A stretch of 64,000 nt of DNA from Desulfovibrio piger. Its GTDB lineage: Bacteria; Desulfobacterota; Desulfovibrionia; Desulfovibrionales; Desulfovibrionaceae. Every line of letters starts with the position of its first letter. Position 1 is the stretch's first letter. A program made the translations under genes and the position numbers. The stretch spans positions 434,001 to 498,000 of the forward strand of contig NZ_OX636706.1 of assembly GCF_951793255.1 (NCBI RefSeq). The letters run 5' to 3'. Shown here in pieces: positions 30,233-59,897 of this stretch. The notes beneath the pieces are model-generated. The model ran no database searches. It was not told the origin of the DNA and saw only the letters and a program-made list of their open reading frames with translations.

Positions 30233-30233
30233 T

Positions 30234-37160: not shown

Positions 37161-37163
37161 GAC

Positions 37164-37574: not shown

Positions 37575-37582
37575 GAGGAACC

Positions 37583-38578: not shown

Positions 38579-38580
38579 CC

Positions 38581-41130: not shown

Positions 41131-41139
41131 GGAGGCATC

Positions 41140-41661: not shown

Positions 41662-41664
41662 ATC

Positions 41665-41976: not shown

Positions 41977-41980
41977 CGCC

Positions 41981-42106
41981 ATGCTTGCCCGCTGGTGGCG
42001 CTGGTCGCCGCGGGACATTGACGACCTCACGATGGAAGAATGGCGGGAAGCGGTGGAAGACGCCGCTTCCCAGATCGAAGCCTATAACGACAGCCTGAAG
42101 AAGTGA
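41981..42106 (+). CDS. Tail assembly chaperone second part (gp41'-like), probably made by frameshift
   Basis: 41 residues, MLARWWRWSPRDIDDLTMEEW onward, with the GpE'-like W-x-x-DIDDLTMEEW pattern. No good ribosome site before its ATG, and the frame is open back past the end of the upstream gene, so it is probably fused to gp41 by -2 (or +1) frameshifting. Confidence 0.7.
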   Translation: MLARWWRWSPRDIDDLTMEEWREAVEDAASQIEAYNDSLKK

Positions 42107-42108
42107 CC

Positions 42109-45898: not shown

Positions 45899-45899
45899 T

Positions 45900-46130
45900 G
45901 TGGACAGGCTCGTACACGTCACAAGTGAGGGCGAGCGTTGGGATACGCTGGCCTGGCGCTACTACGGGGATGTATCGGAAGTGGAACGCATCATCACGGC
46001 CAATCCCCACATGCCGATAACCCCGGTCCTTCCGGGCGGGGTACGGATATTCATCCCTGTGGTCAGGGCCGCGGAACTGGAACACAACGTCAATCTTCCG
46101 CCCTGGTGCTCCGGGGCGAGTGAGGAATGA
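45900..46130 (+). CDS. Tail protein X-like (LysM fold), GTG start
   Basis: 76 residues starting MDRLVHVTSEGERWDTLAWRY. P2 GpX-like: GERWDTLAWRYYGDVSEVERIITANPH. The start is GTG at 45900 with AGGAGG six bases upstream; no in-frame ATG fits. Two bases after the previous stop. Confidence 0.85.
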   Translation: MDRLVHVTSEGERWDTLAWRYYGDVSEVERIITANPHMPITPVLPGGVRIFIPVVRAAELEHNVNLPPWCSGASEE

Positions 46131-47200
46131 ACATGAGCGGCCCGGTAGAAGTCCCTGTGCCCCAGGCACGGATCATATATGAAGGAAAGGACATTTCCGC
46201 GGACATCAGCCCGTATCTTCTCAGCGTCGGCTATACGGACAGATTGTCCGGGGAATCCGACGAGCTGGAGCTGCGCCTTGAAGACACCGACGGGCGCTGG
46301 CGCGGCGACTGGTACCCGGGCAAGGGGGATTCCCTCACGGTATCCATCGGCTACGCCGGGCAGGAGCCTGTTTCCTGCGGCTCCTTCGAGATTGACGAGA
46401 TAGAACTTTCCTTTCCACCGGACGAGGTTTCCATCCGGGCGCTGGCCACAGGCATCAGCGTTTCGTGCAGGACGCGGAAAAGCAAGGGGTACGAGAAAAC
46501 TACGCTGGCCGGAGTGGTCCGCGTGGTGTGCGGACGGCTGGGGCTGACGCCGGCCGGAGAAGTGGCGGACATACCCCTTGACCGGGTGACGCAGTATCAG
46601 GAGAGCGATCTTGCCTTTCTGACCCGGCTTGCCGGCGAGTACGGGCACACGTTCAAGATCAGCGGCAAAAAGATGATTTTCCAGCGCAAGGACAGTGTGC
46701 TGACTGCGGACAGCGCGCGGACCTTCAAACGGGAGGACGTGACGTCGTGCAGCTTCCGGGACAAGCTGAAGGACATTCCCCAAAAGGTCAAAATCAAGAA
46801 ACAGGACGCGGGGAAAAAGGCGCTGAAGGTGTACGGCAAGAGCAGCGACGACAGCCTGGCCGTGGTGGCCACCACGGAGCAGGCACAGAAGAAACGCGGG
46901 CGAACCTCAAAAAAAGCCAGCGGTGACGAGCTGCGCATCGTGGGGCGCGGCAGCCAGGCGCAGCTTGAAGCCAAGGGCAACGCGGCTCTTCAGGACGTGG
47001 AACTGGAACGTTGCCATGCGGAACTTTCACTGTACGGCGACCCTTCCCTGCGTGCCGGAGTATCGGTGGAACTTGGGGAAGACTTCGGCGCGCCGGCGGG
47101 CAAGTACCTGATCACCTGCTCCCGGCATGAAATAAGCCGGGAGGGATACACAACAACGCTGACGCTTGCACGGACGGCGGCCCCGGAGAAAAAGGCATGA
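46127..47200 (+). CDS. Late control/tail hub protein (P2 D / Mu P-like)
   Basis: 357 residues, ATG overlapping the preceding stop. Contains LEDTDGRWRGDWYPGKGDSL, QESDLAFLTRLAGEYGHTFKI and a C-terminal AGKYLITCSRHEISREGYTTTLTL, typical of the baseplate hub (gpD) family. Connects tube and spike. Confidence 0.9.
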   Translation: MNMSGPVEVPVPQARIIYEGKDISADISPYLLSVGYTDRLSGESDELELRLEDTDGRWRGDWYPGKGDSLTVSIGYAGQEPVSCGSFEIDEIELSFPPDEVSIRALATGISVSCRTRKSKGYEKTTLAGVVRVVCGRLGLTPAGEVADIPLDRVTQYQESDLAFLTRLAGEYGHTFKISGKKMIFQRKDSVLTADSARTFKREDVTSCSFRDKLKDIPQKVKIKKQDAGKKALKVYGKSSDDSLAVVATTEQAQKKRGRTSKKASGDELRIVGRGSQAQLEAKGNAALQDVELERCHAELSLYGDPSLRAGVSVELGEDFGAPAGKYLITCSRHEISREGYTTTLTLARTAAPEKKA

Positions 47201-47865
47201 GCCGGACACAGGAAGAATCCGGGGCAACGTTCGCCTTCGGCATCGTCACGGCGGTGGACGCCGGGCGGGGCTGGGCGCGGGCCAGCCTGCCGGAATACGA
47301 TAATCTGGAAACGGCCTTCCTGCCGGTGCTCCAGCGCCGCACGCACAGGGACAAGGCGCTCAATCTGCCGGACGTGGGGGAACAGGTGGTGCTTCTCCTT
47401 GACTTGCGGGGGGAGGACGGCGTCATCCTGGGCGCGGTCTGGTCGGACGCGGACCCCGTGCCGCAGACTGGAGGCCCGGATGTGGATGTGCGGCGCTATG
47501 CCGACGGCACGGTGCTGCGCTATGACCGCGCGGCGCACAGGCTGACGGCGGATGTTCAGGGGGAAATCGTGGCTACCTGCACGGGCAAGGCTGACGTGAC
47601 AGTGGAAGGCCCCGCTCGCGTGGAGTCAAAGGTGGCCCTTACCTTGGCCGCGCCGACCATTACCATGCGGGGAGCCTTGTCCATGCGGAGCTATGAGGGT
47701 GACGGCCCGACCACGGCGGAGATCGACGGTCCCCTGACCGTGAATCGCGGTGACGTGACCGTGCCCGGCAACGACGTAAAGGCCGGCGACGTTTCCCTGA
47801 AGGAACACAGGCACGGCGGCGTAGATACGGGCGGCGGTACCAGCGGCCCGCCGGTCAATGCTTGA
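47197..47865 (+). CDS. Baseplate assembly/spike protein V
   Basis: 222 residues. The gpV pattern is clear: an OB-fold part (FGIVTAVDAGRGWARASLPEYD, PDVGEQVVLLLD) followed by beta-helix spike repeats and a C-terminal HRHGGVDTGGGTSGPP with His residues for metal at the tip. Forms the needle. Ends in an 11-bp overlap with the convergent TPR gene. Confidence 0.9.
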   Translation: MSRTQEESGATFAFGIVTAVDAGRGWARASLPEYDNLETAFLPVLQRRTHRDKALNLPDVGEQVVLLLDLRGEDGVILGAVWSDADPVPQTGGPDVDVRRYADGTVLRYDRAAHRLTADVQGEIVATCTGKADVTVEGPARVESKVALTLAAPTITMRGALSMRSYEGDGPTTAEIDGPLTVNRGDVTVPGNDVKAGDVSLKEHRHGGVDTGGGTSGPPVNA

Positions 47866-48454
47866 GTTTTCTTCGTTCAGCGGCTTCCTGAGCGGCTTTC
47901 ATGCGCGTAAACTTGCCGTAATGAAAACGAGCCTTTTCGCTGTATATTTCAAGCAGGTCTGACCGTTTCTGCCGTTTGCAAGCCGTCATCATGTGGCCGT
48001 ATATCTCAGACAGACGCAAATGAAGAAATTTCTCCCGTACATTTTTGCGCTGATGTCCGAACTCATACTGATTGGCGGCTTCCGCATTATCCAGCAATTC
48101 CTGAAACTCGGCGAGGGCTTCGTCAAAATGCCCTGCCTGCTGTAAAAACAGAGGAAGCCGACAAAGCCTCTGCACCGTATGCCCATCCCCTGAAGGAGTT
48201 ACCAATTCTTTAGCCTTTCGCAGACAGGCTATAGCATCTTCCCATTGTTTGGCGTCCTTGAACTCCGTTGCCTTGCGGTGCAGCGCGGCAAACTCCTCTT
48301 CAACGGATGCCTCTTGTGTCGATGCTGCATCATCTGGCGTTACCTCAGCGCTGACAGCAACGGGTACGTCCTCACCATGCGATATGCCTACGCTGCCGGC
48401 CTGCTCCTTGACAGCAGCCCTTCTGCGACCAAACAGAAAGGATAAAATTCCCAT
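47855..48454 (-). CDS. TPR-type cytosolic protein, opposite strand, 199 aa
   Basis: Acidic N-terminus, then tetratricopeptide-like helical repeats (EEEFAALHRKATEFKDAKQWEDAIACL; LFLQQAGHFDEALAEF). No signal peptide. It is the only leftward gene in the late region, which suggests a lysogeny-expressed accessory gene (moron) with its own promoter. A TTGTAAT TTT ATTACAA dyad sits at 48483-48499, about 30 bp upstream of its start. Confidence 0.72.
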   Translation of the reverse strand: MGILSFLFGRRRAAVKEQAGSVGISHGEDVPVAVSAEVTPDDAASTQEASVEEEFAALHRKATEFKDAKQWEDAIACLRKAKELVTPSGDGHTVQRLCRLPLFLQQAGHFDEALAEFQELLDNAEAANQYEFGHQRKNVREKFLHLRLSEIYGHMMTACKRQKRSDLLEIYSEKARFHYGKFTRMKAAQEAAERRKLKH

Positions 48455-48482
48455 ACCGAACTCCTCTTGCCTCTCGCTGTTT

Positions 48483-48499
48483 TTGTAATTTTATTACAA
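48483..48499. repeat. 17-bp palindrome upstream of the TPR gene
   Basis: TTGTAAT, TTT, ATTACAA: perfect 7-bp arms. The first ten bases are identical to the start of the subterminal repeats at 16888 and 59814 (TTGTAATTTT). Confidence 0.7.
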
Positions 48500-48648
48500 T
48501 TTCGCTTGACGGTCGAGGCATGGGCGAGGTAACTGTCCTTTTCAGGAGCTTAAGAACTCCTTCCAAGACGGCTGGTCACCCCGTAGCGTGGCTCTTTTTA
48601 TGCTCTGTCAAGACTGTTTTTTTCTTGGCGGTGGTGTATAGTACGATC

Positions 48649-48735
48649 TCACAGGTCGGGAGTGGGCTAATACAATACCGCTTGTCGGGAATAGGCCCGC
48701 CGTTTCTTGGACGGTTCTTAGCTCCCGGCCTTTTT
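48649..48735 (+). ncRNA. C4-like antisense RNA candidate upstream of the antirepressor
   Basis: About 87 nt. An outer stem GGTCGGGAG (48654-48662) with CTCCCGGCC (48722-48730), followed by TTTTT, ends it as an intrinsic terminator. An inner hairpin CCG TTTCTTGGA CGG presents a loop TCTTGGA (48705-48711) that is perfectly complementary to TCCAAGA (48762-48768), which overlaps the antirepressor ribosome site. The size, position and layout match C4 RNAs of P1/P7-type phages, which block antirepressor translation. A -10-like TATAGT lies just upstream. Confidence 0.62.
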
Positions 48736-48776
48736 GTTTTCTGAAAAGGTCAATAAGAAAATCCAAGAGGTGTTTC

Positions 48777-49358
48777 ATGACCCAGCTTCCCGCCATTGCC
48801 CTGACGCCCGACGCGCAGGGCCGCCCCACCTGCCTTTCCACCGACGTAGCCCTGCACTTCCAGAAGAAGCATCTTCACATTCTCCGCGACATCGACCGAC
48901 TCAAATCTCTCCTTCCGAACTCCTTCACTGAATCCAATTTTGGATTCAGTGAATACACCGACAAGACAGGACGTAAACTTCGTGCCTTTCGCCTGACCCG
49001 CGACGCCTTCAGCCTTCTGATCATGGGCATGACCGGCCCGGCGGCCATCCGCTGGAAGCTGCGCTACATTGAGGCGTTCAATACGATGGAAAGGGAACTG
49101 CTGGAACGGCATGACGGCGACCTGTTTCTGGCCGGGGCGCGGGCGGCGGCCCAGCGCCTTGCCGGGGAAGAACGCGCCCGGCTGGCCGACTGCGCCCTTG
49201 CCCTGCTGGACGAAGGGCTGACCCAGCGCGAAGTCGGGGAACTTTTACATGTCAGCCGCTGGACGGTGCGGCGGCTCAAGCGGCGCTTCGGCTTCATGGC
49301 CGCGCCGAGGACGGAAACGCGCCCTGAAATCCGTATGGTTCAGGGGGTGCTGGCATGA
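48777..49358 (+). CDS. Rha-type antirepressor with C-terminal helix-turn-helix
   Basis: 193 residues. Residues 1-115 follow the Rha (phage regulatory) pattern: VALHFQKKHLHILRDIDRL, YTDKTGRKLRAFRLTRDAFSLLIMGMTG and LRYIEAFNTMERELL. The C-terminus has a helix-turn-helix (LTQREVGELLHVSRWTVRRLKR). Such proteins antagonise repressors or interfere with phage or host regulation. Its ribosome site (AGAGG) is the predicted target of the upstream C4-like RNA. A 30-bp palindrome lies inside the gene at 48924-48953. Confidence 0.8.
   Translation: MTQLPAIALTPDAQGRPTCLSTDVALHFQKKHLHILRDIDRLKSLLPNSFTESNFGFSEYTDKTGRKLRAFRLTRDAFSLLIMGMTGPAAIRWKLRYIEAFNTMERELLERHDGDLFLAGARAAAQRLAGEERARLADCALALLDEGLTQREVGELLHVSRWTVRRLKRRFGFMAAPRTETRPEIRMVQGVLA
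48924..48953. repeat. 30-bp perfect palindrome inside the Rha-type gene
   Basis: TTCACTGAATCCAA, TT, TTGGATTCAGTGAA: 14-bp perfect arms. It encodes FTESNFGFSE within the Rha domain. Confidence 0.85.
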
Positions 49359-49573
49359 AAGCTCCCGTCAATCCTCTGTACGTTCCCGGCTGTCCCATGG
49401 ATACCGTAACCAACGTTTCGCGGATTCTGGCCTATCTTGGCGACATATCCCTTCATCTTCATCAGCCGGACTCGGACCGCATCGCGCTGGAACTGTCCGG
49501 CGACGGCGCGGACGGACAGTATCACCTGTTCCGAACATTGCAGGAAACACTTGATTCCGTTGTGGAAGAATAA
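49355..49573 (+). CDS. Small protein after the antirepressor, 72 aa
   Basis: Starts MKAPVNPLYVPGCPMDTV; its ATG overlaps the antirepressor stop (ATGA). Helical with no known motif. Probably co-expressed with the antirepressor and ends just before a strong terminator. Confidence 0.65.
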   Translation: MKAPVNPLYVPGCPMDTVTNVSRILAYLGDISLHLHQPDSDRIALELSGDGADGQYHLFRTLQETLDSVVEE

Positions 49574-49579
49574 CTACAG

Positions 49580-49603
49580 GCCCCGCTTCGGCGGGGCTTT
49601 TCG
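49580..49603 (+). terminator. Terminator closing the antirepressor island
   Basis: GCCCCGC, TTCG, GCGGGGC, then TTTTCGTTTT: a stable tetraloop hairpin with a T-rich tail, directly before late promoter 3. Confidence 0.92.
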
Positions 49604-49604
49604 T

Positions 49605-49651
49605 TTTCCTAAAGCCCTTTCAAAGACGCGGCGCGCTCCGTTTCCTATAAA
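49605..49651 (+). promoter_or_regulatory. Late promoter 3 (baseplate/fibre operon), activator-site repeat
   Basis: Third identical copy of the 25-bp repeat (CTAAAGCCCTTTCAAAGACG at its core) with -10 TATAAA at 49646-49651. The predicted start is at or next to the A of the ATG at 49658. Confidence 0.75.
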
Positions 49652-49657
49652 GGAGAC

Positions 49658-50065
49658 ATGTCAAACCTGCTTGCCTCCTCCCGATACCGCGCGACTCCAG
49701 ACACCCCCCACTGGCAACTTGCCCTTGGGGGGGACGGCGTCGTGCAGCAGATCGCGGATGTGCACCAGTGCATCCGCATCATCCTGACCACCCCCAAAGG
49801 TTCCGACCCGTTACGGCCGGATTTCGGGTGCGACGCGGGCAATTATCTTGACTTGCCCCTGGACGCGGCCCGGCCTCATATCGTGCGGGAAGTGCGTGCG
49901 GCGCTCGTCTGGGAACCACGCATCCGTGTTGACGGTGTGGCGGTAAGCCAGGGGAAGGAGCAAAGCGGCGGCCATGCCGTGGTCCGCATAACCTGGAGGC
50001 TTGCCGATATGAGCGGTACGGACGGGCGGAACACGACAAGCGTCGTCATGGGGGGCGCGGCATGA
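49658..50065 (+). CDS. Baseplate wedge protein W (gp25-like)
   Basis: 135 residues. GPW/gp25 pattern: IADVHQCIRIILTTPKGSDPLRPDFGCD, then LVWEPRIRV. Part of the baseplate wedge, as Mu gp46. The AAGGAG lies only two bases from the ATG. Because the promoter start falls at the ATG, its message may be leaderless. Confidence 0.88.
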   Translation: MSNLLASSRYRATPDTPHWQLALGGDGVVQQIADVHQCIRIILTTPKGSDPLRPDFGCDAGNYLDLPLDAARPHIVREVRAALVWEPRIRVDGVAVSQGKEQSGGHAVVRITWRLADMSGTDGRNTTSVVMGGAA

Positions 50066-51180
50066 TGAGAGAACTGCCGGAACCGAAGTTCATCGAGACG
50101 GACCAGCAGGCCGTACTTGAATCCTGCATCCGCAAATATGAGGAACTGACCGGGCGCACGCTGTACCCGGCGCAGGCCGAGCGGCTGATCATAAATCTGA
50201 TCGCCTACCGGGAACACCTTGTCCGTGTGGGCATCCAGGAGGCGGCAAAACAGAATCTCGTCCGCTACGCCCAGGCTCCCATGCTGGACATGCTGGGAGA
50301 GCTTGTCGGTGTGACGCGACTTTCCGAAGCGGCGGCATCCTGTGTCATGCGATTCTCTGTGAAGACGGCACTCCCTGCCGACCTGTCCATTCCCGCAGGC
50401 GTGAAAATCTACAGCCAGGACGGAGCATACCGCTTCGACACGCTGGCGACCGTGGTGCTGAAGGCAGGAGAGTTTTTCGTGGATGCCGCTGCGCAATGCT
50501 CCGAAGGAGGCGCCGCGGCCAACGGGATACTTCCCGGCGGAGTATGCCAGCTTGCCGATCCTCTTTCCGATGCGGACGTGAGTGTTGCCAATGTGGACAC
50601 CACGGCAGGAGGTGTGGACGCTGAAGATGACGGACATTTGCGGGAGCGCATCATGCTTGCGCCCGAGGCTTTTTCCGTCGCGGGGAGCGAACTTGCCTAC
50701 CGGTATCACGCGCTTTCCGCCTCTCCGGACATTGTGGATGTGGGTGTCCTGTCGCCCGCGCCCGGAGAAGTGGATCTGTATCTTCTGGCGCAAAATGGAC
50801 TGCCCGGCGAAGCCCAGCTGGTACTGGTTGCGACCTATGTCAGCGGAGAAAAAATCCGCCCCCTGACAGACCTTGTCCATGTGTATGCGGCTTTACGTGT
50901 GCCCGCACGCCTCGAGGCGGAGCTGACTCTCTATGTCTGGGCCGATGAAGCGGCCGTCAGGGCACTGGTCGATCAGGCAGTGTCTTCCTGGCTGGAATCC
51001 GGTCGCACGAAGCTCGGCGTGGATATCGTGCGTACCCAGCTTGTCGCCCTGCTTTCCGTGTACGGGGTGTACCGCGTGCATCTGGTCGCACCGGAATCGG
51101 ATCGCGAGACCGATGCCAGCCAGTGGGTGGACTGGGAAGAGATCCGCATCACCATAATGCCGGAGCGGAAAAATGGATAG
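50062..51180 (+). CDS. Baseplate J-like protein (Mu gp47-like)
   Basis: 372 residues; ATG overlaps the preceding stop. Baseplate_J features: PMLDMLGELVGVTRL, SIPAGVKIYSQDGAYRF, GGVDAEDDGHLRERIMLAPEAFSVAGS and the LAYRYHALSASPDIVDVGV segment. Builds the wedge with W and I. Confidence 0.92.
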   Translation: MMRELPEPKFIETDQQAVLESCIRKYEELTGRTLYPAQAERLIINLIAYREHLVRVGIQEAAKQNLVRYAQAPMLDMLGELVGVTRLSEAAASCVMRFSVKTALPADLSIPAGVKIYSQDGAYRFDTLATVVLKAGEFFVDAAAQCSEGGAAANGILPGGVCQLADPLSDADVSVANVDTTAGGVDAEDDGHLRERIMLAPEAFSVAGSELAYRYHALSASPDIVDVGVLSPAPGEVDLYLLAQNGLPGEAQLVLVATYVSGEKIRPLTDLVHVYAALRVPARLEAELTLYVWADEAAVRALVDQAVSSWLESGRTKLGVDIVRTQLVALLSVYGVYRVHLVAPESDRETDASQWVDWEEIRITIMPERKNG

Positions 51181-51976
51181 GGACGACCTGCTTCAGCCGT
51201 CGCTTCGGGGCGACGTTCGCATGGAAGCTCTTGCCCGGCTCGCGGCCCGCATTTCGGCGCTCCCCGTCTCTACACCGCTCGTCAATCTTTTTGACCTTGT
51301 GGATGCGTCAGCCCTGCCGGCCTTGGGGGAGCAGTTCCATATCCTGGGGGTGGAGGGCTGGAATCTGGCGGGAACGGAAGCCGCCCGGCGGGCGCTGCTG
51401 AAAAGAGCCATTGAGCTGCACCGGCACAAGGGCACGCCCTGGGCCGTGCGCACGGCGCTGGAAACGGCGCTGCCCACCGAGGCGAGCATAAAAGAGTGGT
51501 TCGCCTATGGCGGCGATCCCTTCTTCTTCCGCGTGCGTCTGGACGTGAGCGAACTTGGTCTGGACGAATCGGGCATGACCAGCGCCGTCCGGCTGATCCT
51601 CGACTACAAGAACGTGCGCAGCTGGCTTGAATGCCTTGAGACCTTCACCCGCAGGCCCCTTCCCATAGCCGTGGCCACGGCGGGTGTCATGCGCACCCTG
51701 AACCGCGTGCGCCTCTGGTTCCCGCCAAAACCTGTGCCGCCCGCCCGCGTCCATGTGGCGACGGCCGGCATCATGCGCACCCTGAGTCGCGTGCGCCTGC
51801 ATTTTCCGCCGGAGCCGGCGGCCCCCGCGCGTCCGCGCATCGCCTTCGTAAGCCTGATCTGCTCGCGCGGCCGCCTCCGTCCCTTTACGCCGCCGCGGCC
51901 TGTGCCCGCGGCGCGCGGCCGCGTTGCCCTTGCCCTGTTGACCATGACCCGGAGTCGCGTATGTCCGCAACCGTAA
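51173..51976 (+). CDS. Tail protein I (Mu gp48-like) with repetitive C-terminus
   Basis: 267 residues. The first 165 carry the P2 I pattern (FDLVDASALPALGEQFHILG; RALLKRAIELHRHKGTPWAVRTAL). The last 105 residues form about four imperfect repeats of 28-30 residues, each with the pattern VATAGVMRTLNRVRLWFPP and a Pro/Ala/Arg tail. Overlaps J by eight bases. The repeats are an unusual addition and may serve as a connector to the fibre. Confidence 0.85.
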   Translation: MDRDDLLQPSLRGDVRMEALARLAARISALPVSTPLVNLFDLVDASALPALGEQFHILGVEGWNLAGTEAARRALLKRAIELHRHKGTPWAVRTALETALPTEASIKEWFAYGGDPFFFRVRLDVSELGLDESGMTSAVRLILDYKNVRSWLECLETFTRRPLPIAVATAGVMRTLNRVRLWFPPKPVPPARVHVATAGIMRTLSRVRLHFPPEPAAPARPRIAFVSLICSRGRLRPFTPPRPVPAARGRVALALLTMTRSRVCPQP

Positions 51977-52911
51977 GAGCCGTCGTTCCCGGCGGCACGG
52001 ACGACCTGCCCGAAGTGGGCGGCGTCGCCACCGACACCCCCGAATATTTTTGTCTGCTCACCCGTGCCGGCGCGGCGCTGGAAGCCGCCGCCCATGCCGC
52101 GGGCAAGCCCGTCCGTCTCAGCGTCATTGCCGTGGGCGATGGTGACGGCGAAGTCCCCGTGCCAACTGATGATGCCGTGGCGCTGGTGCATGAGGTCTAC
52201 CGCCGCCCCATCGACAGCCTGTCGCAGGACGAGGAAGACCCCAACATCTGCTGGGTCCATATCGTCATCCCGACCACGGAAGGCGGCTTCTGGATACGCG
52301 AGTTCGGCGTCTGGGCCGAACCGCTGGAGGACGACGGCGAGCCCGTGCTCTACGCCTACGGCAACCATGCCCCGTTCTACAAGCTGAAATCCGTGCTGGG
52401 ACAGGCCACCACGCATGAGCTGTCCGTGCCCATCATCATGTCCGGCACGGCGGACGTGGAGATCGTGGTCAGCGAGGCGGGCTACGCCTCGCGGCTGGAA
52501 CTGCTCCAAATCGCGGGCGTGGTGGAAGACCTGCGCCGCAACCGGGAGGCCGTCTGGACGCTGGACGCGCCCGTGGAGGAAGGCGGCGCGCTGACCCTGC
52601 CGGAGGGCCTGACCTATGCGCCGGGAAAACATCTGCTGGATGTCTTCTGGGACGGCGTGGCCTGCTATCCGGGCCAGCAGTACGAGGAAATTTCTTCGGC
52701 TGACGCGCTGGAATCGACCGCGATCCGCCTGCTTTTCGCTGCTCCGGCCGGGAGCGAGATGCGGGTGCTGGTGCGGGCCTACAGCATCCAGCCGAAGCTG
52801 GAGGGCGTGGAGGTGCCGGAGGGCATCGCCGAGCGCGTGGACGCGCTGGAGACACGCCTCGAGGACGTGGCCGCGAACGTGGCCTATATCGACAAACCCT
52901 CTCATGAGTAA
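51961..52911 (+). CDS. Tail-fibre N-terminal protein (DUF3751-type)
   Basis: 316 residues. The N-terminal part (EYFCLLTRAGAALEAAAHAAG, LVHEVYRRPIDSLSQDEEDPN, GGFWIREFGVW) is the phage tail-fibre/DUF3751 pattern. The C-terminal part has FWDGVACYPGQQYEE and ends in a coiled coil. The FxDGVAC motif recurs in the small 102-residue protein downstream. Attaches distal fibre proteins to the baseplate. Confidence 0.85.
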   Translation: MSATVRAVVPGGTDDLPEVGGVATDTPEYFCLLTRAGAALEAAAHAAGKPVRLSVIAVGDGDGEVPVPTDDAVALVHEVYRRPIDSLSQDEEDPNICWVHIVIPTTEGGFWIREFGVWAEPLEDDGEPVLYAYGNHAPFYKLKSVLGQATTHELSVPIIMSGTADVEIVVSEAGYASRLELLQIAGVVEDLRRNREAVWTLDAPVEEGGALTLPEGLTYAPGKHLLDVFWDGVACYPGQQYEEISSADALESTAIRLLFAAPAGSEMRVLVRAYSIQPKLEGVEVPEGIAERVDALETRLEDVAANVAYIDKPSHE

Positions 52912-52922
52912 GGAGAAAACTC

Positions 52923-53480
52923 ATGGCTGAACTCATTAAGGTTAAACTGCTTGACGCGCAGAAGAACACCATCCTGCCCGAAACCACCGCTGAACAGGTC
53001 AAGACGAACGATGGCAGCAATGTCGAAACCAAGCTCGCCTCACTGCAAACCGCTATCAGCGGCAAGGTCCCCTGCCATATCGTCAACGACATCGCTGCCC
53101 GTGACGGTCTGGAGAGCCCGAAGCAGGGGGACCTGTGCTGGGTCAAGGATGCCACGGCTGATGCGACCGTTACCTCCGGTGCTGCCCAGTACATCTACGA
53201 CGGCGCACGGTGGGTGAAGATCGCCGAAGCCGAAAGCATGGATCTGGTCGTCAAGTGGACCGACATCCAGGGCAAGGAAGGCGTTGAAGCCGCTATGGCC
53301 AAGGCCCACGAGCACGCCAATGCCGACGTCCTCAACGGCATCTCCGCCACCGGTGATACCGCGATCATCAACGGCAAGACCTACTACTCCGGCCGTATGG
53401 TGGCCATCATCGAGAATGGCGGCGAGATCCCCGCGGATATGAACCCCAACGGCATCGTCTTCGAAAAAGCCGCCGTCTAG
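52923..53480 (+). CDS. Fibre-region protein, 185 aa
   Basis: Starts MAELIKVKLLDAQKNTILPE. Looks like a virion-attached beta-rich protein (AQYIYDGARWVKIAEAESMD). No family recognised. Its place between fibre genes suggests a fibre segment or an accessory of adhesion. Confidence 0.7.
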   Translation: MAELIKVKLLDAQKNTILPETTAEQVKTNDGSNVETKLASLQTAISGKVPCHIVNDIAARDGLESPKQGDLCWVKDATADATVTSGAAQYIYDGARWVKIAEAESMDLVVKWTDIQGKEGVEAAMAKAHEHANADVLNGISATGDTAIINGKTYYSGRMVAIIENGGEIPADMNPNGIVFEKAAV

Positions 53481-53499
53481 GGGGCAGGGAGGGAGTCCT

Positions 53500-53808
53500 G
53501 TGTCGTATATCATCAAGGATGCCAAAGGTAACAAAATCGGTATGCTGCCGGACTCCCTCCGCGTGGCCCAGGCTGCCGAGCTGCGCTCCCTTGCCGGGAG
53601 CCGCTCGGCGGCCATCGCGGCCAGCACGCAGTTCACGGTGCCGCAGTATGAGGTGGGCAGCGTGGCGCTGGAGGTCTTTTTGGACGGCGTCGCCTGCATG
53701 ATCGGCGAGCAGTACGCCGAGGTCGGCAGCAAGGGCCAGACCAGCACGAAAATCACCTGGAACATCGAAGTCGCCACGGATCGGGACATCCTGGTCCGCT
53801 GCAAGTAG
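53500..53808 (+). CDS. Fibre-region protein, 102 aa, GTG start
   Basis: Starts at the GTG at 53500 (GGGAG upstream). Its centre FLDGVACMIGEQYAEV repeats the FWDGVACYPGQQYEEI motif of the fibre protein at 51961, which suggests a duplicated module. Unknown role, probably in the fibre. Confidence 0.68.
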   Translation: MSYIIKDAKGNKIGMLPDSLRVAQAAELRSLAGSRSAAIAASTQFTVPQYEVGSVALEVFLDGVACMIGEQYAEVGSKGQTSTKITWNIEVATDRDILVRCK

Positions 53809-53818
53809 GAGGTCAGCC

Positions 53819-54517
53819 ATGTCGTTTCCCGGAATCATCCGCCGCCTGTTCGCCAACAACGGGGCAGGCCCCAAGCTGCGTAAGGACATCTTGCCCTCCC
53901 ATGCCGATACTCATGCCCCGGGGGGGAGTGATCCTCTTGATCTTGAAACCTTGGGTGGTGTGAGCTCCGATGATTTTTCGGCACTGCAGGAGAAGGTCGC
54001 GGGCTTGATCGAGGCCATCGGAAATATCGATCCTTGGACAATATTCCCGCCGCGCCTCCCTGTTGCCATCGACGGCGTGACCTTCGGCGGGAGCGATGGC
54101 CGTCGGGCCATCATGCCCGGGGAGACAGAGGCCCGTGAGGACTGGATACTCTGTGACGGTGGCAGCGACGGCAAAGGCGGCACCGTGCCGGATCTGCGCG
54201 GGCGCATGATTTTGGGCGCCTCCGATGAGCATACGGCTGGCTCCACCGGCGGCTCTGAGACCCATAGCCACAGTATTTCCGGCACTGTCGGGGCCACGAC
54301 GCTTACCGCGGAGCAGATGCCCTCTCACAGCCACAGTACCACTTCGGGCACGACAAATGCGGCAGGAGGTAGCCAGCGGAGCGAGGTCGCAGGACAGAGA
54401 CAGACAGGGGCTGCCGGTGGCTCTCAACCCCATACGCACACGCTGGATGGAGCATCTGGGGAGGCGTCCTCCCTGCCTCCGTATTATGCCCTTTCGTACA
54501 TCATGCGGACGGCCTGA
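53819..54517 (+). CDS. Tail fibre/collar protein with switchable tip
   Basis: 232 residues. Constant part (1 to about 152): N-terminal attachment region, coiled segment (DDFSALQEKVAGLIEAIG), then a tail-collar domain with DWILCDGGSDGKGGTVPDLRGRMILG. The tip (from about residue 153) begins at the repeat TTTCCGGCACTGTCGG and contains His pairs (MPSHSHS, SQPHTHT) and the end SLPPYYALSYIMRTA. Collar-type fibres bind metal through such HxH motifs. Three alternative tips lie silent downstream, each preceded by the same repeat in frame. Probable receptor-binding protein. Confidence 0.88.
   Translation: MSFPGIIRRLFANNGAGPKLRKDILPSHADTHAPGGSDPLDLETLGGVSSDDFSALQEKVAGLIEAIGNIDPWTIFPPRLPVAIDGVTFGGSDGRRAIMPGETEAREDWILCDGGSDGKGGTVPDLRGRMILGASDEHTAGSTGGSETHSHSISGTVGATTLTAEQMPSHSHSTTSGTTNAAGGSQRSEVAGQRQTGAAGGSQPHTHTLDGASGEASSLPPYYALSYIMRTA
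54276..54291 (+). repeat. Shufflon site 1 (expressed tip)
   Basis: TTTCCGGCACTGTCGG inside the fibre gene at the start of the variable tip; rightward. Confidence 0.85.
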
Positions 54518-54556
54518 TCCGGCGGCAGGCGTGGTCTGCGGGACCATGACCAGGTG

Positions 54557-54572
54557 TTTCCGGCACTGTCGG
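54557..54572 (+). repeat. Shufflon site 2
   Basis: TTTCCGGCACTGTCGG, rightward, before silent tip 2. Confidence 0.85.
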
Positions 54573-54801
54573 CAGCACGACCTTGAGCGTGGCGCAGATG
54601 CCAAGACATACTCATACGTTCGACAAGGGCACTTATGGCAATATTGCAGAAGCCAAAGGCAGTGCGAACTCCGGAAAACAAACGACTGATGCAACAGGCG
54701 GCTCCCAAGCCCATACGCATAGTCTGTCCGGGGCCGAGTCTGGCAGCGCCTCAAACCTGCCTCCCTATTACGCCCTGTCCTACATCATGCGATGCGCATG
54801 A
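54557..54801 (+). other. Silent fibre tip 2 (rightward)
   Basis: Open frame from the site: SGTVGSTTLSVAQMPRHTHT, then a variable loop, and the end SNLPPYYALSYIMRCA. No promoter, ribosome site or constant part of its own. It would be expressed after deletion between sites 1 and 2 or after paired inversions. Confidence 0.82.
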
Positions 54802-55044
54802 TGTAGGTGAGTGCATAGTATGGCGGGAGCGTGCTGGCCGACCCGGATTTGGCTCCCGACAACGCATGAGTATGCGCCTGGGAACCGCCCGAGGCATCAG
54901 TGGGCTGTCCGTCTCTCGGCGGTTTGCAGTCATTGCCGTCATTTTTGCCGTGCCAGCCGCTCCACGATGTGACCTTGCGATAACCATGTGTATGGCTTGG
55001 CATCTGCTTAGTGGACAACGTGGTCTCACCCACAGTGCCGGAAA
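54785..55044 (-). other. Silent fibre tip 3 (leftward)
   Basis: From site 3 leftward: SGTVGETTLSTKQMPSHTHG, variable loop, end STLPPYYALTYIMRIA. Its stop region overlaps that of tip 2 in a near-palindrome (TACATCATGCG and its inverse around 54781-54805). Confidence 0.82.
55029..55044 (-). repeat. Shufflon site 3 (inverted)
   Basis: Leftward TTTCCGGCACTGTGGG, one base different from the others. Confidence 0.85.
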
Positions 55045-55082
55045 CACCCGGCCGTCACCCTCAACCCCACGTCTACCGGGGC

Positions 55083-55333
55083 TCAGACGCGGATCACATA
55101 ATGTCCGGCGTAGTACGGCGGAAGGCTGTCTGCGGCCTCGGAGCTGACCCCGGACAGGCTGTGCGTGTGCGACTGAGACCCCCCTGTCTGGCTAGTAGAT
55201 GCAACGACATTATCACCTGATGCATATGTACCTCGATTATTTCCGCCCGTATGGAACTTACCAACATTCGCAGTATGATTATGCCCAGGCATCTGCTCCA
55301 CGCTCAACGTCGTGGCGCCGACAGTGCCGGAAA
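55083..55333 (-). other. Silent fibre tip 4 (leftward)
   Basis: From site 4 leftward: SGTVGATTLSVEQMPGHNHT, variable loop, end SLPPYYAGHYVIRV. Confidence 0.82.
55318..55333 (-). repeat. Shufflon site 4 (inverted)
   Basis: Leftward TTTCCGGCACTGTCGG, the outer boundary of the shufflon, 45 bp before the next rightward gene. Confidence 0.85.
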
Positions 55334-55377
55334 GACATTTTTAATCGCCGCCATGCGGCATAACCAGGAGCTTTTCC

Positions 55378-56049
55378 ATGCCTCAAGTTACCGTAGTTCC
55401 CGCTGACCATTTGATCATCGTCGATGGCGCGACCCTCGTTTTTACCTATGTGGCTCCCGAAAATCTGCATGCCCTGCAATGGCGTGGGGACACTGGCCAT
55501 ACCGAGTGGACGGACGGCCCCAACAAGCCGCTGACTGCTGAGGATTATGACGAGCAGGTCGTGCCGTATGTGGCCCTGTGGGAAGAGGAGAAAAGACGGC
55601 TGGAAGCCGAAGCAGCAGCCGCCGAGGAAGCCTACAACTCCCTGGAGAACGTGAAAGCCCGCAAGCTCTCCGCCATCGACGCCGAGACCTCTTCCGCCAT
55701 CATGGCCGGATTCGAGTGCGAGGCCACCCCGCCGGATACCGGCACGCCTGAGCTGCTGCACTTCTCCTACGACAGCTTTGACCAGCAGAACTTCGCCGAC
55801 GCGGCCGTATCCATGCAGCTCGCGACGGCCAGCGATGGCGGTATCCCTACTACCACGCCCTGGAATGCCTACCGTAACCACACGGCTGACAGCAAGGGAG
55901 AGCTGGTCATCCTGCAACTGACCGCTGAGACCTTCCTGCCCATCTATGCGGCCGCGCTGAACCACAAGGCCACCCAGATGGCCATTGGCGGACAGCGCAA
56001 GGCTGCCGTGGCCGCCGCGCAGACCGTGGAAGATGTGAAGGCTATCTGA
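55378..56049 (+). CDS. Tail-fibre assembly-type protein (DUF4376-like)
   Basis: 223 residues with an N-terminal beta part (VDGATLVFTYVAPENLHALQWRGDTGHTEW) and a helical C-terminal half with AFxxNxFD-like FDQQNFADAAVSMQLA and WNAYRNHTADSKGELVILQL, as in DUF4376 fibre-associated proteins. GGAG precedes the ATG. Placed right after the shufflon, it could be a chaperone or a distal fibre part. Confidence 0.75.
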   Translation: MPQVTVVPADHLIIVDGATLVFTYVAPENLHALQWRGDTGHTEWTDGPNKPLTAEDYDEQVVPYVALWEEEKRRLEAEAAAAEEAYNSLENVKARKLSAIDAETSSAIMAGFECEATPPDTGTPELLHFSYDSFDQQNFADAAVSMQLATASDGGIPTTTPWNAYRNHTADSKGELVILQLTAETFLPIYAAALNHKATQMAIGGQRKAAVAAAQTVEDVKAI

Positions 56050-56297
56050 TGCCCAGTTACCTCCACAACCTGCTCGTGGCTTGCGACCAGCTTGTGAATG
56101 CGGCCATCGGTGGCTGGCCTGACGAAACGCTGAGTTCACGCTGCTGGCGCTGGCACAAAGATGGCGTGCGCTCCTGGCCATGCCGCTGCTTGGATAAAAT
56201 GGCGGCATGGCTGGGAGACAAGGATCACTGCCGGACATCCTATGAATCAGAACGAACCCGCAGGCAGCTCCCACCTGAGCTGCGGGGGGCTTTGTAA
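56049..56297 (+). CDS. Small phage protein, 82 aa
   Basis: Contains AAIGGWPDETLSSRCWRWHKDG and RSWPCRCLDKMAAWLGDKDHCRTSYESER, a pattern I associate with conserved small proteins near fibre or lysis genes of phages of gut and sulfate-reducing bacteria. Its start overlaps the previous stop (TGATG). Function unknown. Confidence 0.7.
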   Translation: MPSYLHNLLVACDQLVNAAIGGWPDETLSSRCWRWHKDGVRSWPCRCLDKMAAWLGDKDHCRTSYESERTRRQLPPELRGAL

Positions 56298-56863
56298 TGG
56301 GGGAAGATATGGAAATTATCCTTTGTGCAGTGCAGCCTTACTTGGCTAAGGCATGGCGAGAGCATATCAGCGAGGACCTGTCCCGCACTGTGCGCGTGGT
56401 GGAGGGGAGTATCCTCTCCCTGGACGTGGCTGCTGTGGTCAGCCCGGCCAATTCGTTCGGATTTATGGATGGCGGCCTGGATGCCCTCTATACGCAGTAT
56501 TTCGGTCCGCAACTCCAGCAGCGTCTGCAACGGATGATCCGGGAACAGACTGGCGGTGAGCTGCTGGTGGGGCAGGCATTGCTGGTGGAGACCGGGCACC
56601 CGCGCATCCGCTGGTGCATCAGTGCACCGACCATGCGCGTGCCACGCGGCCTGGAGACGGCGGAGCCGGCCTATCTGGCCACACGGGCTGCCGTGCGCTG
56701 TGCTTTGGCGGCCGGGTTGGAGTGTGTGGCCATCCCGGGCATGGGGACGGGTGTGGGTGGGCTGCATCCTCAACGTGCTGCCCGTGCCATGATGCATGCC
56801 ATCCATGACGTACTTTTCCCGCGCCCATTCCCCGCCTCTCTGGCCGAGGTATACGCATTTTGA
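56297..56863 (+). CDS. Macro-domain protein (ADP-ribose-binding type)
   Basis: 188 residues (a start at 56309 is also possible). Macro-domain features: VSPANSFGFMDGGLD for the ADP-ribose loop and IPGMGTGVGGL for the phosphate loop. Macro domains bind or remove ADP-ribose. In a prophage this could reverse or sense ADP-ribosylation or NAD-derived signals used in phage defence; that role is inferred. Confidence 0.85.
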   Translation: MGEDMEIILCAVQPYLAKAWREHISEDLSRTVRVVEGSILSLDVAAVVSPANSFGFMDGGLDALYTQYFGPQLQQRLQRMIREQTGGELLVGQALLVETGHPRIRWCISAPTMRVPRGLETAEPAYLATRAAVRCALAAGLECVAIPGMGTGVGGLHPQRAARAMMHAIHDVLFPRPFPASLAEVYAF

Positions 56864-56890
56864 TGCAATGGCCTCCCACAAGGAGGTCAT

Positions 56891-57781
56891 ATGACAACAA
56901 AACACAAACGGGCCACCATGACGGCCCGCCAACTGGCAGAGGATTATCTGGCACACCAGATCACACGGGATGTGACCCGCACCAGTACCCGATATCATCT
57001 CAATCAGCTGCTGGCCCTGTTCGGGGGCTGGCAAGCCCGCCGGGGGGGCGCGGCCCAGATGCAGGAGTTTTTGGCCGCCCAGAGGGGGCGCGGCGTCATG
57101 GCCACCACAGCGCACCACCGCGTCCGGCTGTGGCGTACCGTCCTGACCTGGGCCGTGGAGACGGGCCGCCTGCCTGCGTCGCCTCTGGCAGGCTTCCGGC
57201 TGCATCGTCCCAGGGCTCGGCGCATCGATCCGCCCACGCGAGCCGAGGCTGCGCGCATGTACAAAATGGCCGCGCCGCATATCCGGCGTGTGATTGTCCT
57301 TGGCATGGCCGCAGGGCCGCGCATAGGCCCCAGCGAGCTTTTCAGGCTCGCGTGGGCGGACGTGGAACTGACGGCGGGCTACATGAGGATGCCCAACGCG
57401 GCCAAGGGTGCGAAGGAAGACAGCAGAATCGTCCCTATTCGGGACGATATTCTGCCCCTGTTGCGGGCGTGGAAAGAGGAAGACGAAAAACGGAGCTGCC
57501 CGTGGGTCATCCACTGGCAAGGACGACAGGTGCGTTGCATAGGCCATGCCTGGCACCAGGCCCGCAAAGCGGCGGGCATCACGCGGCGCATAACGCCCTA
57601 CAGCCTGCGTCATGCCATGCCCACGGAAGCCCTGGAACATGGCGCGGACGTGAAAGCGGTGGCGGAGGTCATGGGCCATGCTGACCCGACCATGCTACTG
57701 CGCGTCTATCAGCACACGCGCTACAGGCTGAAGAAGAAAGCGGTCAACGCCGCACCCGGCCTGCGGCTGGACAAGATTTGA
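56891..57781 (+). CDS. Tyrosine recombinase, probable shufflon (Rci-like) enzyme
   Basis: 296 residues. The N-terminal SAM-like core-binding part (about 10-105) is followed by the catalytic domain: Arg in AAGPRIGPSELFRLAW, box II TPYSLRHAMPTEAL (Tyr replaces the first His of HxLRH), then VMGHADPTMLLRVYQHT with the nucleophile Tyr. A Mu-like phage integrates by transposase and does not need an integrase. The only repeated inverted sites nearby are those of the fibre shufflon, so site-specific inversion there is the best explanation. Confidence 0.87.
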   Translation: MTTKHKRATMTARQLAEDYLAHQITRDVTRTSTRYHLNQLLALFGGWQARRGGAAQMQEFLAAQRGRGVMATTAHHRVRLWRTVLTWAVETGRLPASPLAGFRLHRPRARRIDPPTRAEAARMYKMAAPHIRRVIVLGMAAGPRIGPSELFRLAWADVELTAGYMRMPNAAKGAKEDSRIVPIRDDILPLLRAWKEEDEKRSCPWVIHWQGRQVRCIGHAWHQARKAAGITRRITPYSLRHAMPTEALEHGADVKAVAEVMGHADPTMLLRVYQHTRYRLKKKAVNAAPGLRLDKI

Positions 57782-57952
57782 CAGTGGCGGGGGCGCTCCA
57801 CACGCCCCCACCGGCCCGGCAAGGACCATACCGGACCACGGCCCCACAAGCGGAAGGCAGCCGCTTGCAGAGTATCCGCCTGTCGGTCGTCTCGGGGTGA
57901 GACAAAAGGCAGAATAGGCGGATTATTCGCGGGGCGCAACGCTTTTGACACT

Positions 57953-58165
57953 ATGAACAAGAGAGATTTGCCGGAAATCAGGTGCCCGTACTGCAACAAG
58001 CTTATTGCCAAGGGGGAAGCCGTCGAGCTTGAGTTTCGCTGCGGGCGATGCAAGAACTTCTTCATTCTGCGGGCCACGCGCCCCAATTCGGAACGTCCAG
58101 AGCGTCCACAGGAGCTTTGTCATGCTGAAAGTGGGCAGCCTGTTCAGCGGAGCCGGTCTGTGTGA
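57953..58165 (+). CDS. com: Com-like zinc-finger regulator
   Basis: 70 residues: IRCPYCNKLIAKGEAVELEF and RCGRCKNFF give two CxxC pairs, the pattern of Mu Com. Com binds mRNA and allows translation of the DNA-modification gene mom. Here no mom is seen; two DNA methyltransferases follow. Overlaps the next gene by 44 bases, so translational coupling is likely. Confidence 0.8.
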   Translation: MNKRDLPEIRCPYCNKLIAKGEAVELEFRCGRCKNFFILRATRPNSERPERPQELCHAESGQPVQRSRSV

Positions 58166-58961
58166 CCTTGGCCTGAGCTGGGCGGGATTCAGGCATCAAT
58201 GGTTTTGCGAGATTGATCCATTTTGTCGGTCGGTACTCGCACGTCACTGGCCGGACATTCCTCTTTATGAGGATGTGAATACTCTGAAAGGCTCTGAACT
58301 GCCGCCCGTGGATGTGCTCTGCGGCGGCTTCCCCTGTCAGGACGTATCCCAGGGAGGGAAACATGCGGGAATCAAGAAGGGCACGCGCAGCGGCCTGTGG
58401 CTCGAATACGCACGACTCATCGGAGAAATACGTCCCCGGTACGTCATCATCGAAAACGTCCGGGGCTTGCTCGCCAGGGGAATTGAGATCGTCCTGCAAA
58501 ATTTGGCCGAGATCGGGTATGATGCGGAATGGGAAGTGCTTTCCGCAGCCGCCCTTGGTGCCCCTCATCGGCGCGAACGCGTGTTTGTTGTTGCCTTCCC
58601 CCACGGTAACGGCCCTGACCCAGAGCGTAGGCTTCTATCTCCGCTCCAAAGAATCGTGGGAGAAGTCGACCAACCTTTCGGCATACTTGCTTGGCTTGGA
58701 ATACGGATTGTCGGGCAAAGCCGCGAAGCCGTCCGGCACGCATATCCCGGCCCCGTCCTTTATCGAGTGGATGATGGGTGTGCCGGAGGGCTGGACTATC
58801 CCGTAAATACCCCGCCCGTTCCCCGGCGGGTTCTTCCTGAATGGCGCAGACGCCTGAAGGCTCTGGGGAACGGCATCCTGCCCCAGCAGGCGTATGCTGT
58901 GGGAGCCTGCATCATGGCGCGCGAGGGAAGGCGCGTTTTCCCCATGCCGCTTGACTCCTGA
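58122..58961 (+). CDS. DNA cytosine-5 methyltransferase
   Basis: 279 residues from the ATG at 58122 (GGAG upstream). Motif I VGSLFSGAGLCDLGL, catalytic PC in LCGGFPCQDVS (motif IV), IIENVRG (VI), APHRRERVFVVA (VIII) and LKALGNGILPQQ (X). The region between motifs VIII and X is short, so its target-recognition part is small. Probably protects phage DNA from host restriction. A second frame through residues 65-230 also contains an EWMMGVPEGW-like motif. Confidence 0.88.
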   Translation: MLKVGSLFSGAGLCDLGLSWAGFRHQWFCEIDPFCRSVLARHWPDIPLYEDVNTLKGSELPPVDVLCGGFPCQDVSQGGKHAGIKKGTRSGLWLEYARLIGEIRPRYVIIENVRGLLARGIEIVLQNLAEIGYDAEWEVLSAAALGAPHRRERVFVVAFPHGNGPDPERRLLSPLQRIVGEVDQPFGILAWLGIRIVGQSREAVRHAYPGPVLYRVDDGCAGGLDYPVNTPPVPRRVLPEWRRRLKALGNGILPQQAYAVGACIMAREGRRVFPMPLDS

Positions 58962-59015
58962 GAACCGAGAGTTCCAGCGATGAGGGCCACGAGCCCCGTT
59001 TTGAAGAAGAAATAT

Positions 59016-59768
59016 ATGGATTCTCACTTTCAAACGGACGGTATCTCGCTCTATCAGGGGGATGCCCTGCGCGTCCTCACAACCTTGCCTGAGGCAAGCG
59101 TGGACGCGGTCCTCACCGATCCGCCGTATTCCAGCGGAGGCGTCACTCTGGGGGCACGACAGGCCGACCCGGCACAAAAATATCAGTCTAGTGGAACAAA
59201 GAAACAATACCCGCCCATGCTGGGCGATTCCAAGGACCAGCATAGCTGGATCATGTGGTGTACGCTGTGGCTCGGCGAATGCTGGCGTATTGCCCGCGAA
59301 GGTGCACCGCTCATGGTGTTCACTGACTGGAGGCAACTTCCGGCCTTGAGTGATGCCGTGCAAGCCGCAGGGTGGAAATGGCTGGGCATCGTGCCTTGGG
59401 ACAAGCGGAGTGCCCGCCCGCAAATCGGCAAGTTTCGTCAGCAGTGCGAATATGTGCTGTTCGCCGTCAAGGGGCGCTTCATTGCCCATACGCGAGCCTG
59501 CTTGCCGGGCGTGTATGGCTACCCTGTGATTGCCGCCAGAAAAGTGCATCTGACCAGCAAGCCGGTGGAGCTCATCGAAGACCTGCTGGCTGTGGCGGCT
59601 CCACAGGCGACTGTCCTGGATCCATTCATGGGTGGCGGGAGCGTGGGCGAGGCATGTATCAGGACGGGCCGGAGCTATATCGGTATGGAGCTATCTCCAG
59701 AATATTACGAGATCAGCCGGGGCAGGCTGACAGCCGTACTCGCTGAGCGCGAAAACGAGACCGAATAG
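59016..59768 (+). CDS. DNA adenine-N6 or cytosine-N4 methyltransferase (beta class)
   Basis: 250 residues from the ATG at 59016 (an in-frame start at 58980 would add 12 residues). Motif IV DPPYSSGG near residue 35 precedes motif I DPFMGGGSVGEAC near residue 206, the beta-class order. The HLTSKPVEL segment is also typical. Works with the cytosine enzyme in phage DNA modification; there is no restriction partner in the window. Confidence 0.85.
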   Translation: MDSHFQTDGISLYQGDALRVLTTLPEASVDAVLTDPPYSSGGVTLGARQADPAQKYQSSGTKKQYPPMLGDSKDQHSWIMWCTLWLGECWRIAREGAPLMVFTDWRQLPALSDAVQAAGWKWLGIVPWDKRSARPQIGKFRQQCEYVLFAVKGRFIAHTRACLPGVYGYPVIAARKVHLTSKPVELIEDLLAVAAPQATVLDPFMGGGSVGEACIRTGRSYIGMELSPEYYEISRGRLTAVLAERENETE

Positions 59769-59780
59769 ACCGTAAACAGA

Positions 59781-59812
59781 AAGGGCGAGGGGTTTCCCTC
59801 GCCCTTCGCTTT
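59781..59812 (+). terminator. Terminator after the methyltransferase genes
   Basis: AAGGGCGAGGG, GTTT, CCCTCGCCCTT, then CGCTTTTTT: a strong hairpin ending the late transcript 55 bp from the right end's boxes. Confidence 0.92.
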
Positions 59813-59843
59813 TTTGTAATTTTGTTGACAAATATGTAGTAGG
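59813..59843 (+). repeat. 31-bp subterminal direct repeat, right copy
   Basis: Same sequence and orientation as 16887-16917 with two differences; begins TTTGTAATTTTGTTGAC and ends TAGTAGG. It runs straight into the TAGTAGGCTTTTGG motif also present at 25056. Confidence 0.8.
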
Positions 59844-59850
59844 CTTTTGG

Positions 59851-59897
59851 AAGAACTTATCGCGCCGCTGCCTGGTGAGTTATCGCGCCGCGCATCA
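59851..59897 (-). repeat. Right prophage end with two transposase-site boxes
   Basis: Read inward from the end: TGATGCGCGGCGC, then GATAACTCACCAGGC (box start at 59884) and GATAAGTTC (box start at 59861), 23 bp apart. Spacing is identical to the left end. Confidence 0.85.

Follow-up and report, generated by a model that had tools for sequence, protein, structure and literature searches.

The window analysed here is a 64,000-nt stretch of the chromosome of Desulfovibrio piger (Desulfovibrionaceae; NCBI RefSeq assembly GCF_951793255.1, contig NZ_OX636706.1, positions 434,001 to 498,000), a genome assembled as a single 3.08-Mb contig. Within a prophage in this window, the constant part of a tail-fibre gene is followed by four alternative tail-fibre tips and, further downstream, by the gene of a tyrosine recombinase. 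Each tip is headed by a crossover site, an exact copy of TTTCCGGCACTGTSGG, two of the four copies pointing rightward and two leftward. The features are given below by position in the window; L009 is a near-identical prophage in the same chromosome.

53819..54277, plus strand: N-terminal, constant part of the tail fibre, sharing its frame with tip 1 (open frame 53819-54517), with PHROG tail/tail collar fibre matches
54276..54291, plus strand: crossover site 1, exact match, with a putative 7-bp core TTTCCGG (54276-54282) and right arm CACTGTCGG; breakpoint relative to L009
54278..54517, plus strand: tip 1, currently fused to the constant part
54557..54572, plus strand: crossover site 2, exact match; edge of the block inverted relative to L009
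54559..54801, plus strand: tip 2, silent, present in L009 too
54785..54801, 17 nt: tips 2 and 3 overlapping in antisense at their 3' ends, a ATCATGCG...CGCATGAT palindrome
54785..55042, minus strand: tip 3, silent in the window, on the constant part in L009
55029..55044, minus strand: crossover site 3, exact match; edge of the block inverted relative to L009
55083..55331, minus strand: tip 4, silent, common to L009
55318..55333, minus strand: crossover site 4, exact match; outer right boundary of the array
56891..57781, plus strand: tyrosine recombinase, the proposed shufflon recombinase, 296 aa, PF00589 (E 1.8e-20)

An earlier note, made from the letters of this DNA, had described four such sites in two orientations, homologous tips ending in PPYYA, a single tip attached to the fibre and a tyrosine recombinase at 56891, and each of these elements is borne out. 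All four sites match exactly where they had been placed, and behind each runs, in one frame (SGTVG...), a tip ending in LPPYYA, the four tips being homologous yet diverged. Tip 1 alone extends the upstream open frame, tips 2, 3 and 4 each meeting an in-frame stop 3-4 codons upstream, and tips 2 and 3, said to lie tail to tail between sites 2 and 3, do converge, overlapping by the 17 nt listed. The fibre as a whole gives a weak PF21939 match, below the cut-off.

Few matches to the site would arise by chance. At up to three mismatches TTTCCGGCACTGTSGG has 8 matches in the window against 1.75 expected (the largest of 100 shuffles reached 7), and at up to one mismatch the whole genome holds 16, all within five loci, with none for the reversed-pattern control. 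Exact TNTCCGGCACTGTSGG occurs in 17 of 288 genomes of the family, six of which carry two or more copies; the single copies of the remaining 11 lie in unrelated sequence (eight genomes) or head a tip (three). The reversed pattern had two or more matches in none of the genomes listed from this 288-genome scan. A possible further array in the genome of the window, at C1:2001007-2002463, has three TACCCAGAACTGTT copies, two forward and one reverse.

Direct evidence of REARRANGEMENT comes from comparison of the window with the near-identical L009 prophage of the same chromosome. The constant region is 98.9% identical over 793 bp, and at site 1 the agreement breaks off, with 200 of 200 positions identical just left and 41 of 100 just right. 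The block holding tips 2 and 3 (window 54553-55047, 495 bp) is 99.2% identical in L009 and inverted relative to the constant part, while the tip 4 stretch is 96% identical with its orientation unchanged. Read from the constant part C, the order is C>t1 >t2 <t3 <t4 in the window and C>t3 <t2 <t4 <t5 in L009. Because the two prophages agree up to site 1 and the inverted block lies between sites 2 and 3, the tips have been rearranged at the sites. One inversion between sites 2 and 3, together with loss or gain of t1 and t5, is the step that links the two arrays as read from their alignment, and such high identity (99.2%) between blocks of opposite orientation makes a recent event probable. In the window, tip 4 stands behind an outer flank, the arrangement to be expected if an outer tip had been lost between direct sites.

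Junctions are also reassorted between arrays. Across loci, no fewer than six left flanks are each found with two or more different tips: flank CCCATAGCCACAGTA stands with tip 1 in the window and with tip 3 in L009, and flank GCGGGTTAAAAAATC with three different tips in three loci. Locus L073 (genome G098) might be taken for both orientations in one assembly, but its two constant parts, at 97.2% identity, differ by 11 mismatches and an N gap, and it was not used as evidence of switching.

In an alignment of the tips the ends are conserved and the middles divergent. Of the 16 convergent pairs that a scan detected, not all of them independent, 15 overlap by exactly 17 nt, and the convergent pair therefore looks like a single cassette; a pair resembling tips 2 and 3 recurs in L009 and in two further loci of the chromosome, L010 and L011. 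The overlap region, in the window (54785-54801) as in other arrays, is palindromic and codes IMR-x-A-stop. The largest array seen, L117:24-4082, holds 16 sites; its complete tips number 15, most of them set in convergent pairs with short spacers, and its contig ends within the array; its recombinase is a 49-61% relative whose match is split between two frames.

Five residues of the recombinase (R144, K172, R240, H263 and Y273), which we take to be catalytic, are invariant in 16 aligned relatives, and Tyr237 stands at the expected His of the HxxR motif. Models of XerC, XerD and XerA align over most of its 296 residues with scores far under their cut-offs, and PHROGs labels it an integrase. We scanned public genomes and viral contigs with the 16-sequence alignment, which together with previously fetched loci gave 142 matching loci. 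An array, meaning at least two sites, had to lie within 6.5 kb, at least 140 aligned residues were required and duplicates were removed; one D. piger locus present as both L069 and L093 was counted once, and the loci dropped for fewer than 140 aligned residues include L009, which has an array. With site motifs derived partly from the same loci, arrays were found at 11 of 14 loci whose recombinase is at least 60% identical, at 15 of 28 between 41% and 60%, and at none of 64 below 41%, the reversed-motif control reaching two sites at 1, 1 and 0 loci, respectively. Sites in both orientations occur in 9 of the 11 arrays at 60% or more and in 13 of the 15 at 41-60%. A motif-free inverted-repeat scan points in the same direction, but also returns chance matches (e.g. 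L157 and L169, below 36% identity). Among GenBank phages, 100 of 50,697 records match the recombinase, each below 60% identity and those listed at about 22-32%; at E<=1e-5 the matching plasmid records number 138 of 72,556, with no Rci named among the matches listed.

The sites of these relatives fall into three classes.

Type 1: site TNTCYGGSACTGT, SGTVG tips
Type 2: site TTTCCGARMTTGGG, FR[NA]W tips, L106 having them on a phage fibre (PF12571)
Type 3: site TWCCCGGAACTGTT, tips that carry on a collar-type motif; neighbours are topoisomerase genes (L080, L086, L108, L111) and a relaxase (L080)

On the recombinase tree each class forms one group, and the labels need two changes, the minimum, a value that none of 200 shuffles matched. 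Two type-2 constant parts were scanned, L106 with the PF12571 match and L195 without a match. The topoisomerase neighbour is seen at four of the seven type-3 loci on the tree and the relaxase neighbour at one. That one, L080:6636-11086, lies in the window's own chromosome, where a type-3 array of four sites and a 42%-identical recombinase sit in an element that also encodes a topoisomerase and a MobA/VirD2 relaxase. On the Nitratidesulfovibrio vulgaris plasmid pDsulf-L2-2 (L213/L214, NZ_CP116247.1) a 44%-identical recombinase adjoins an annotated pilV shufflon gene (PF04917) with sites TACCCGGAGCTGTC. The clade thus adjoins arrays in phages, in a relaxase-bearing element and in a pilV plasmid.

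The first three tip codons are TCC GGC ACT in 35 of 35 tips outside L117, a sameness that is partly built in because these loci were found with the site pattern. In L117 the same codons are TCT GGG ACT in 14 of 16 sites and TCT GGA ACT in the other two, the site letters, with one mismatch allowed, being TTTCTGGGACTGT and TTTCTGGAACTGT, respectively. The letters are thus nearly, not wholly, fixed although the codons could vary, and the codons after the site, unlike those within it, vary synonymously. Left of the core, complementarity to the right arm, scored presuming the core TTTCCGG in type 1 with a length deduced from sequence, is 3.31 of 8 positions at type-1 silent sites (1.88 in shifted controls, n=35) and 5.36 of 8 at type-1 constant-part sites (1.95, n=11). 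The type-3 values are 2.15 of 7 (1.4, n=27) and 5.0 of 7 (1.93, n=7), respectively. The type-3 constant-part sites of L111 and L113 read GCAAACAGTT-TACCCGG-AACTGTTTGC, a 7-bp core between perfect 10-bp arms; that of L086 is without such a left arm.

We consider it very probable that the locus is a phage-tail shufflon, in which four alternative tips in both orientations, each behind the same site, serve one constant fibre part. The adjacent tyrosine recombinase would bind the conserved right arm and the weak left arm around the 7-bp core (TTTCCGG here) and invert the DNA between sites, so that a different tip is fused to the fibre. The direct-repeat pairs, sites 1 and 2 and sites 3 and 4, would at times recombine as well, with tips lost or gained; the enzyme of one prophage would serve arrays whose own enzyme is truncated or missing; and each tip would bind a different receptor, switching thereby altering host range. 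The case, as far as comparison of sequences can make it, is carried by the L009 inversion and by the fit of site class to recombinase clade, which together with the reassorted junctions give good support to the mechanism put forward in the earlier note. From these data we infer that the adjacent enzyme acts on these sites, is active now and also deletes, and that the tips set host range.

Several observations weigh against this explanation. Tips 1 and 5 are each present in only one of the two near-identical arrays, a difference that, judged from the tip orders, inversion alone cannot produce. An intact recombinase is nearby in only three (window, L010 and L011) of the five type-1 loci of the chromosome (window, L009, L010, L011 and L012): that of L009 is an N-terminal fragment and L012 has none in its 16 kb, and both hold arrays. 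No array was found beside 16 of the 42 relatives at 41% identity or more. These misses lie partly at assembly gaps, two D. piger loci having N runs and many others lying near contig ends; however, L071, L097 (the same as L076, with a split enzyme), L125 and L136 have at least 12 kb around them. As to the misses at 60% or more, the array region of the D. piger locus reads N, the recombinase of L076/L097 is split, and L071 has one degenerate tip only. Of the arrays that were counted, two are open to doubt, L115 with matches 6.8 kb apart and a contig that cuts the array, and L100 with two mismatched matches 4 kb apart. The left-arm match at constant-part sites lies in coding sequence and could reflect protein constraint. 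Some homologous exchange between tips, besides recombination at the sites, is likely because neighbouring tips have up to 64 bp in common at 86%. Finally, the AlphaFold model of the fibre has a pLDDT of only 39.6 and was not used, so that receptor binding is argued from position and the pattern of variation.

The alternative that survives best, and which we nonetheless regard as unlikely, is that the array was formerly shuffled and is now frozen, its silent tips being relics. The truncated recombinase of L009 and the degenerate L071 would fit such decay; in the window, however, the recombinase and all four tips are open and the catalytic residues kept, and the near-identity of the inverted blocks speaks for a recent event. 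Less probable still is that the tips are rearranged not by the recombinase but through gene conversion or general homologous recombination among tip genes that resemble each other. The 5' ends of tips are 76-88% similar over 49-64 bp, tip 2 shows a few base differences between the window and L009 just right of its site, and a tip common to L011 and L012 (97.5% identical over 160 nt, the constant region being 73%) starts at the site and ends inside the tip, which looks like a second crossover by homology. Yet the flank-side breakpoints coincide with the site, and in the window the silent tips have left flanks that do not resemble each other; the site codons are near-fixed, to other letters in L117, while the next codons vary; and arrays follow one recombinase clade, with site class following its subclades.

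The array belongs to a prophage whose genes in the window are as follows.

16814..59897: putative prophage limits, with TG...CA ends, aligned inverted GATAACT repeats (19/30 end bases) and a 6-bp direct repeat TGAAAC outside
18344..18883, minus strand: Mu Gam-like protein (PF07352)
19758..20984, minus strand: MuB-like AAA ATPase (PF13401), adjoining the transposase, with a presumed MuB role
20906..22741, minus strand: DDE transposase, rve core (PF00665, E 1.3e-5, below the curated cut-off)
30234..35234, plus strand: Mu-like head genes Gp27, portal and F (PF11985, PF06074, PF04233)
39493..52911, plus strand: contractile P2-like tail genes (sheath, FII tube, GpU, GPD, gp25, J, I), up to a tail-collar fibre protein (PF12571)
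55378..56049, plus strand: DUF4376 protein (PF14301) between array and recombinase, with homologues beside the other four type-1 loci of the chromosome
56297..56863, plus strand: macro-domain protein (PF01661) between array and recombinase, also in L009 and L012

The ends are the sole pair found in a scan of 5-8 bp repeats near both ends, and the limits are thus inferred, not proven. The target duplication of Mu is 5 bp, as against the 6-bp repeat here. By its gene content the prophage is transposable, and the earlier description of it as Mu-like stands for the head and early genes but not for the tail genes, which are P2-like. A 17-bp direct repeat, TTTGTAATTTTGTTGAC, lies just within both ends (16887-16903 and 59813-59829), and the right end (58005-59768) carries phage C5-cytosine and N6/N4 DNA methylase genes that are 96-99% identical in L010 and L011. 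With a Mu-type DDE transposase and inverted ends, the prophage does not need the tyrosine recombinase for integration. It is accordingly very improbable that this enzyme is the prophage integrase or acts elsewhere while another, such as a serine invertase, shuffles the array: the PHROGs label, the 2.1 kb between the recombinase and the putative right end, and four resolvase-family matches in the whole chromosome speak for it, but the integrase reading is countered by the minus-strand transposase, MuB-like and Gam genes and the prophage ends, the serine-invertase reading by the ~48 kb that separate the nearest resolvase match from any type-1 array, and members of the same recombinase clade stand beside arrays in elements as different as phages and a pilV plasmid.

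The phage-tail shufflon explanation may extend to the chromosome as a whole. We hold it possible, though short of an even chance, that the five type-1 loci form a shared tip library, the arrays being shuffled in trans by whichever recombinase is intact, with tips carried from one prophage to another and right ends even joined, and that, with the same clade serving phage-tail and conjugative-element shufflons, tips and enzymes pass between viruses and plasmids. The patterns at L009, L012 and L010, and the stretch of tip common to L011 and L012, fit action in trans and exchange between prophages, but are not proof of it. At L010:5092-12313 two prophage right ends are joined head to head through a two-site array with no constant part; its two recombinases face outward, Mom lying behind one of them and two DNA methylases behind the other. 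A Csd1-type cas gene lies beyond the L010 junction.

Tail shufflons with a tyrosine recombinase, named Rin, were reported in 2018 in Bifidobacterium prophages (PMC6109161), and are also described in Eggerthella lenta clade 1 prophages (PMC8778435). The suggestion in the earlier note that a multi-tip shufflon in a Mu-like phage would be a third solution, next to those of R64 and Mu, is therefore not supported as put. As reported, Rin systems resemble the present one in having a constant tail or receptor-binding gene with several C-terminal tips that are silent, a short asymmetric repeat heading each; a flanking tyrosine recombinase apart from the integration enzyme, of XerD-like length (296 aa here) and without an arm-binding domain; and tip orders that differ among related prophages. 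Here the site is TTTCCGGCACTGTSGG, not TTCCCTAACCC or TTCCGTAT, the convergent tips overlap by 17 nt, five arrays share one chromosome, and the phage is a transposable one of Desulfovibrio with Mu-like head and P2-like tail genes.

The R64 shufflon likewise pairs a tyrosine recombinase, Rci, with a constant gene whose alternative 3' ends, several in number, lie between short repeats of both orientations, and the rearranged window and L009 arrays have their breakpoints at such repeats. According to one account (PMC11852207), the R64 sfx sites have a conserved 7-bp core and right arm and a variable left arm, an anatomy matched here with a putative 7-bp core, and Rci has an extra C-terminal domain after the catalytic Tyr. 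By that account the present enzyme differs, having only 23 residues after Y273. The target here is a phage tail fibre, not a type IV pilus adhesin, although a pilus target holds for the plasmid relative beside pilV (PF04917); the arrays show deletion-like differences; and L117, with its 16 sites, exceeds the seven of R64. In Mu Gin, P1 Cin and p15B Min, serine recombinases invert phage tail-fibre C-termini, the inversions of Min being multiple (PMC6109161). The switched part is the same here, without a serine recombinase beside the array.

For D. piger prophages, Mu-like prophages and diversity-generating retroelements have been reported, and 'recombinase' occurs 0 times in the main text of that report (PMC12724379). 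No tyrosine-recombinase shufflon of Desulfovibrio or of a Mu-like phage was recognised in literature screened by title and the start of the abstract, with most subscription papers and all bioRxiv preprints outside its scope. What is new here is that the phage is transposable, that a single chromosome has five related arrays, and that phages and conjugative-type elements are served by one enzyme clade.

Comparison within a single chromosome thus shows rearrangement of the tail tips of a transposable phage at short sites, for which a tyrosine recombinase is most likely responsible. The phage shufflons of this kind that we found reported are from Actinobacteria, and the present case lies outside them. 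Shufflons of phage tails and of conjugative elements are tied to a single enzyme clade with three site classes, and trans-acting shuffling among resident prophages becomes testable. If the explanation is true, tip switching would let the virus change its attachment target.

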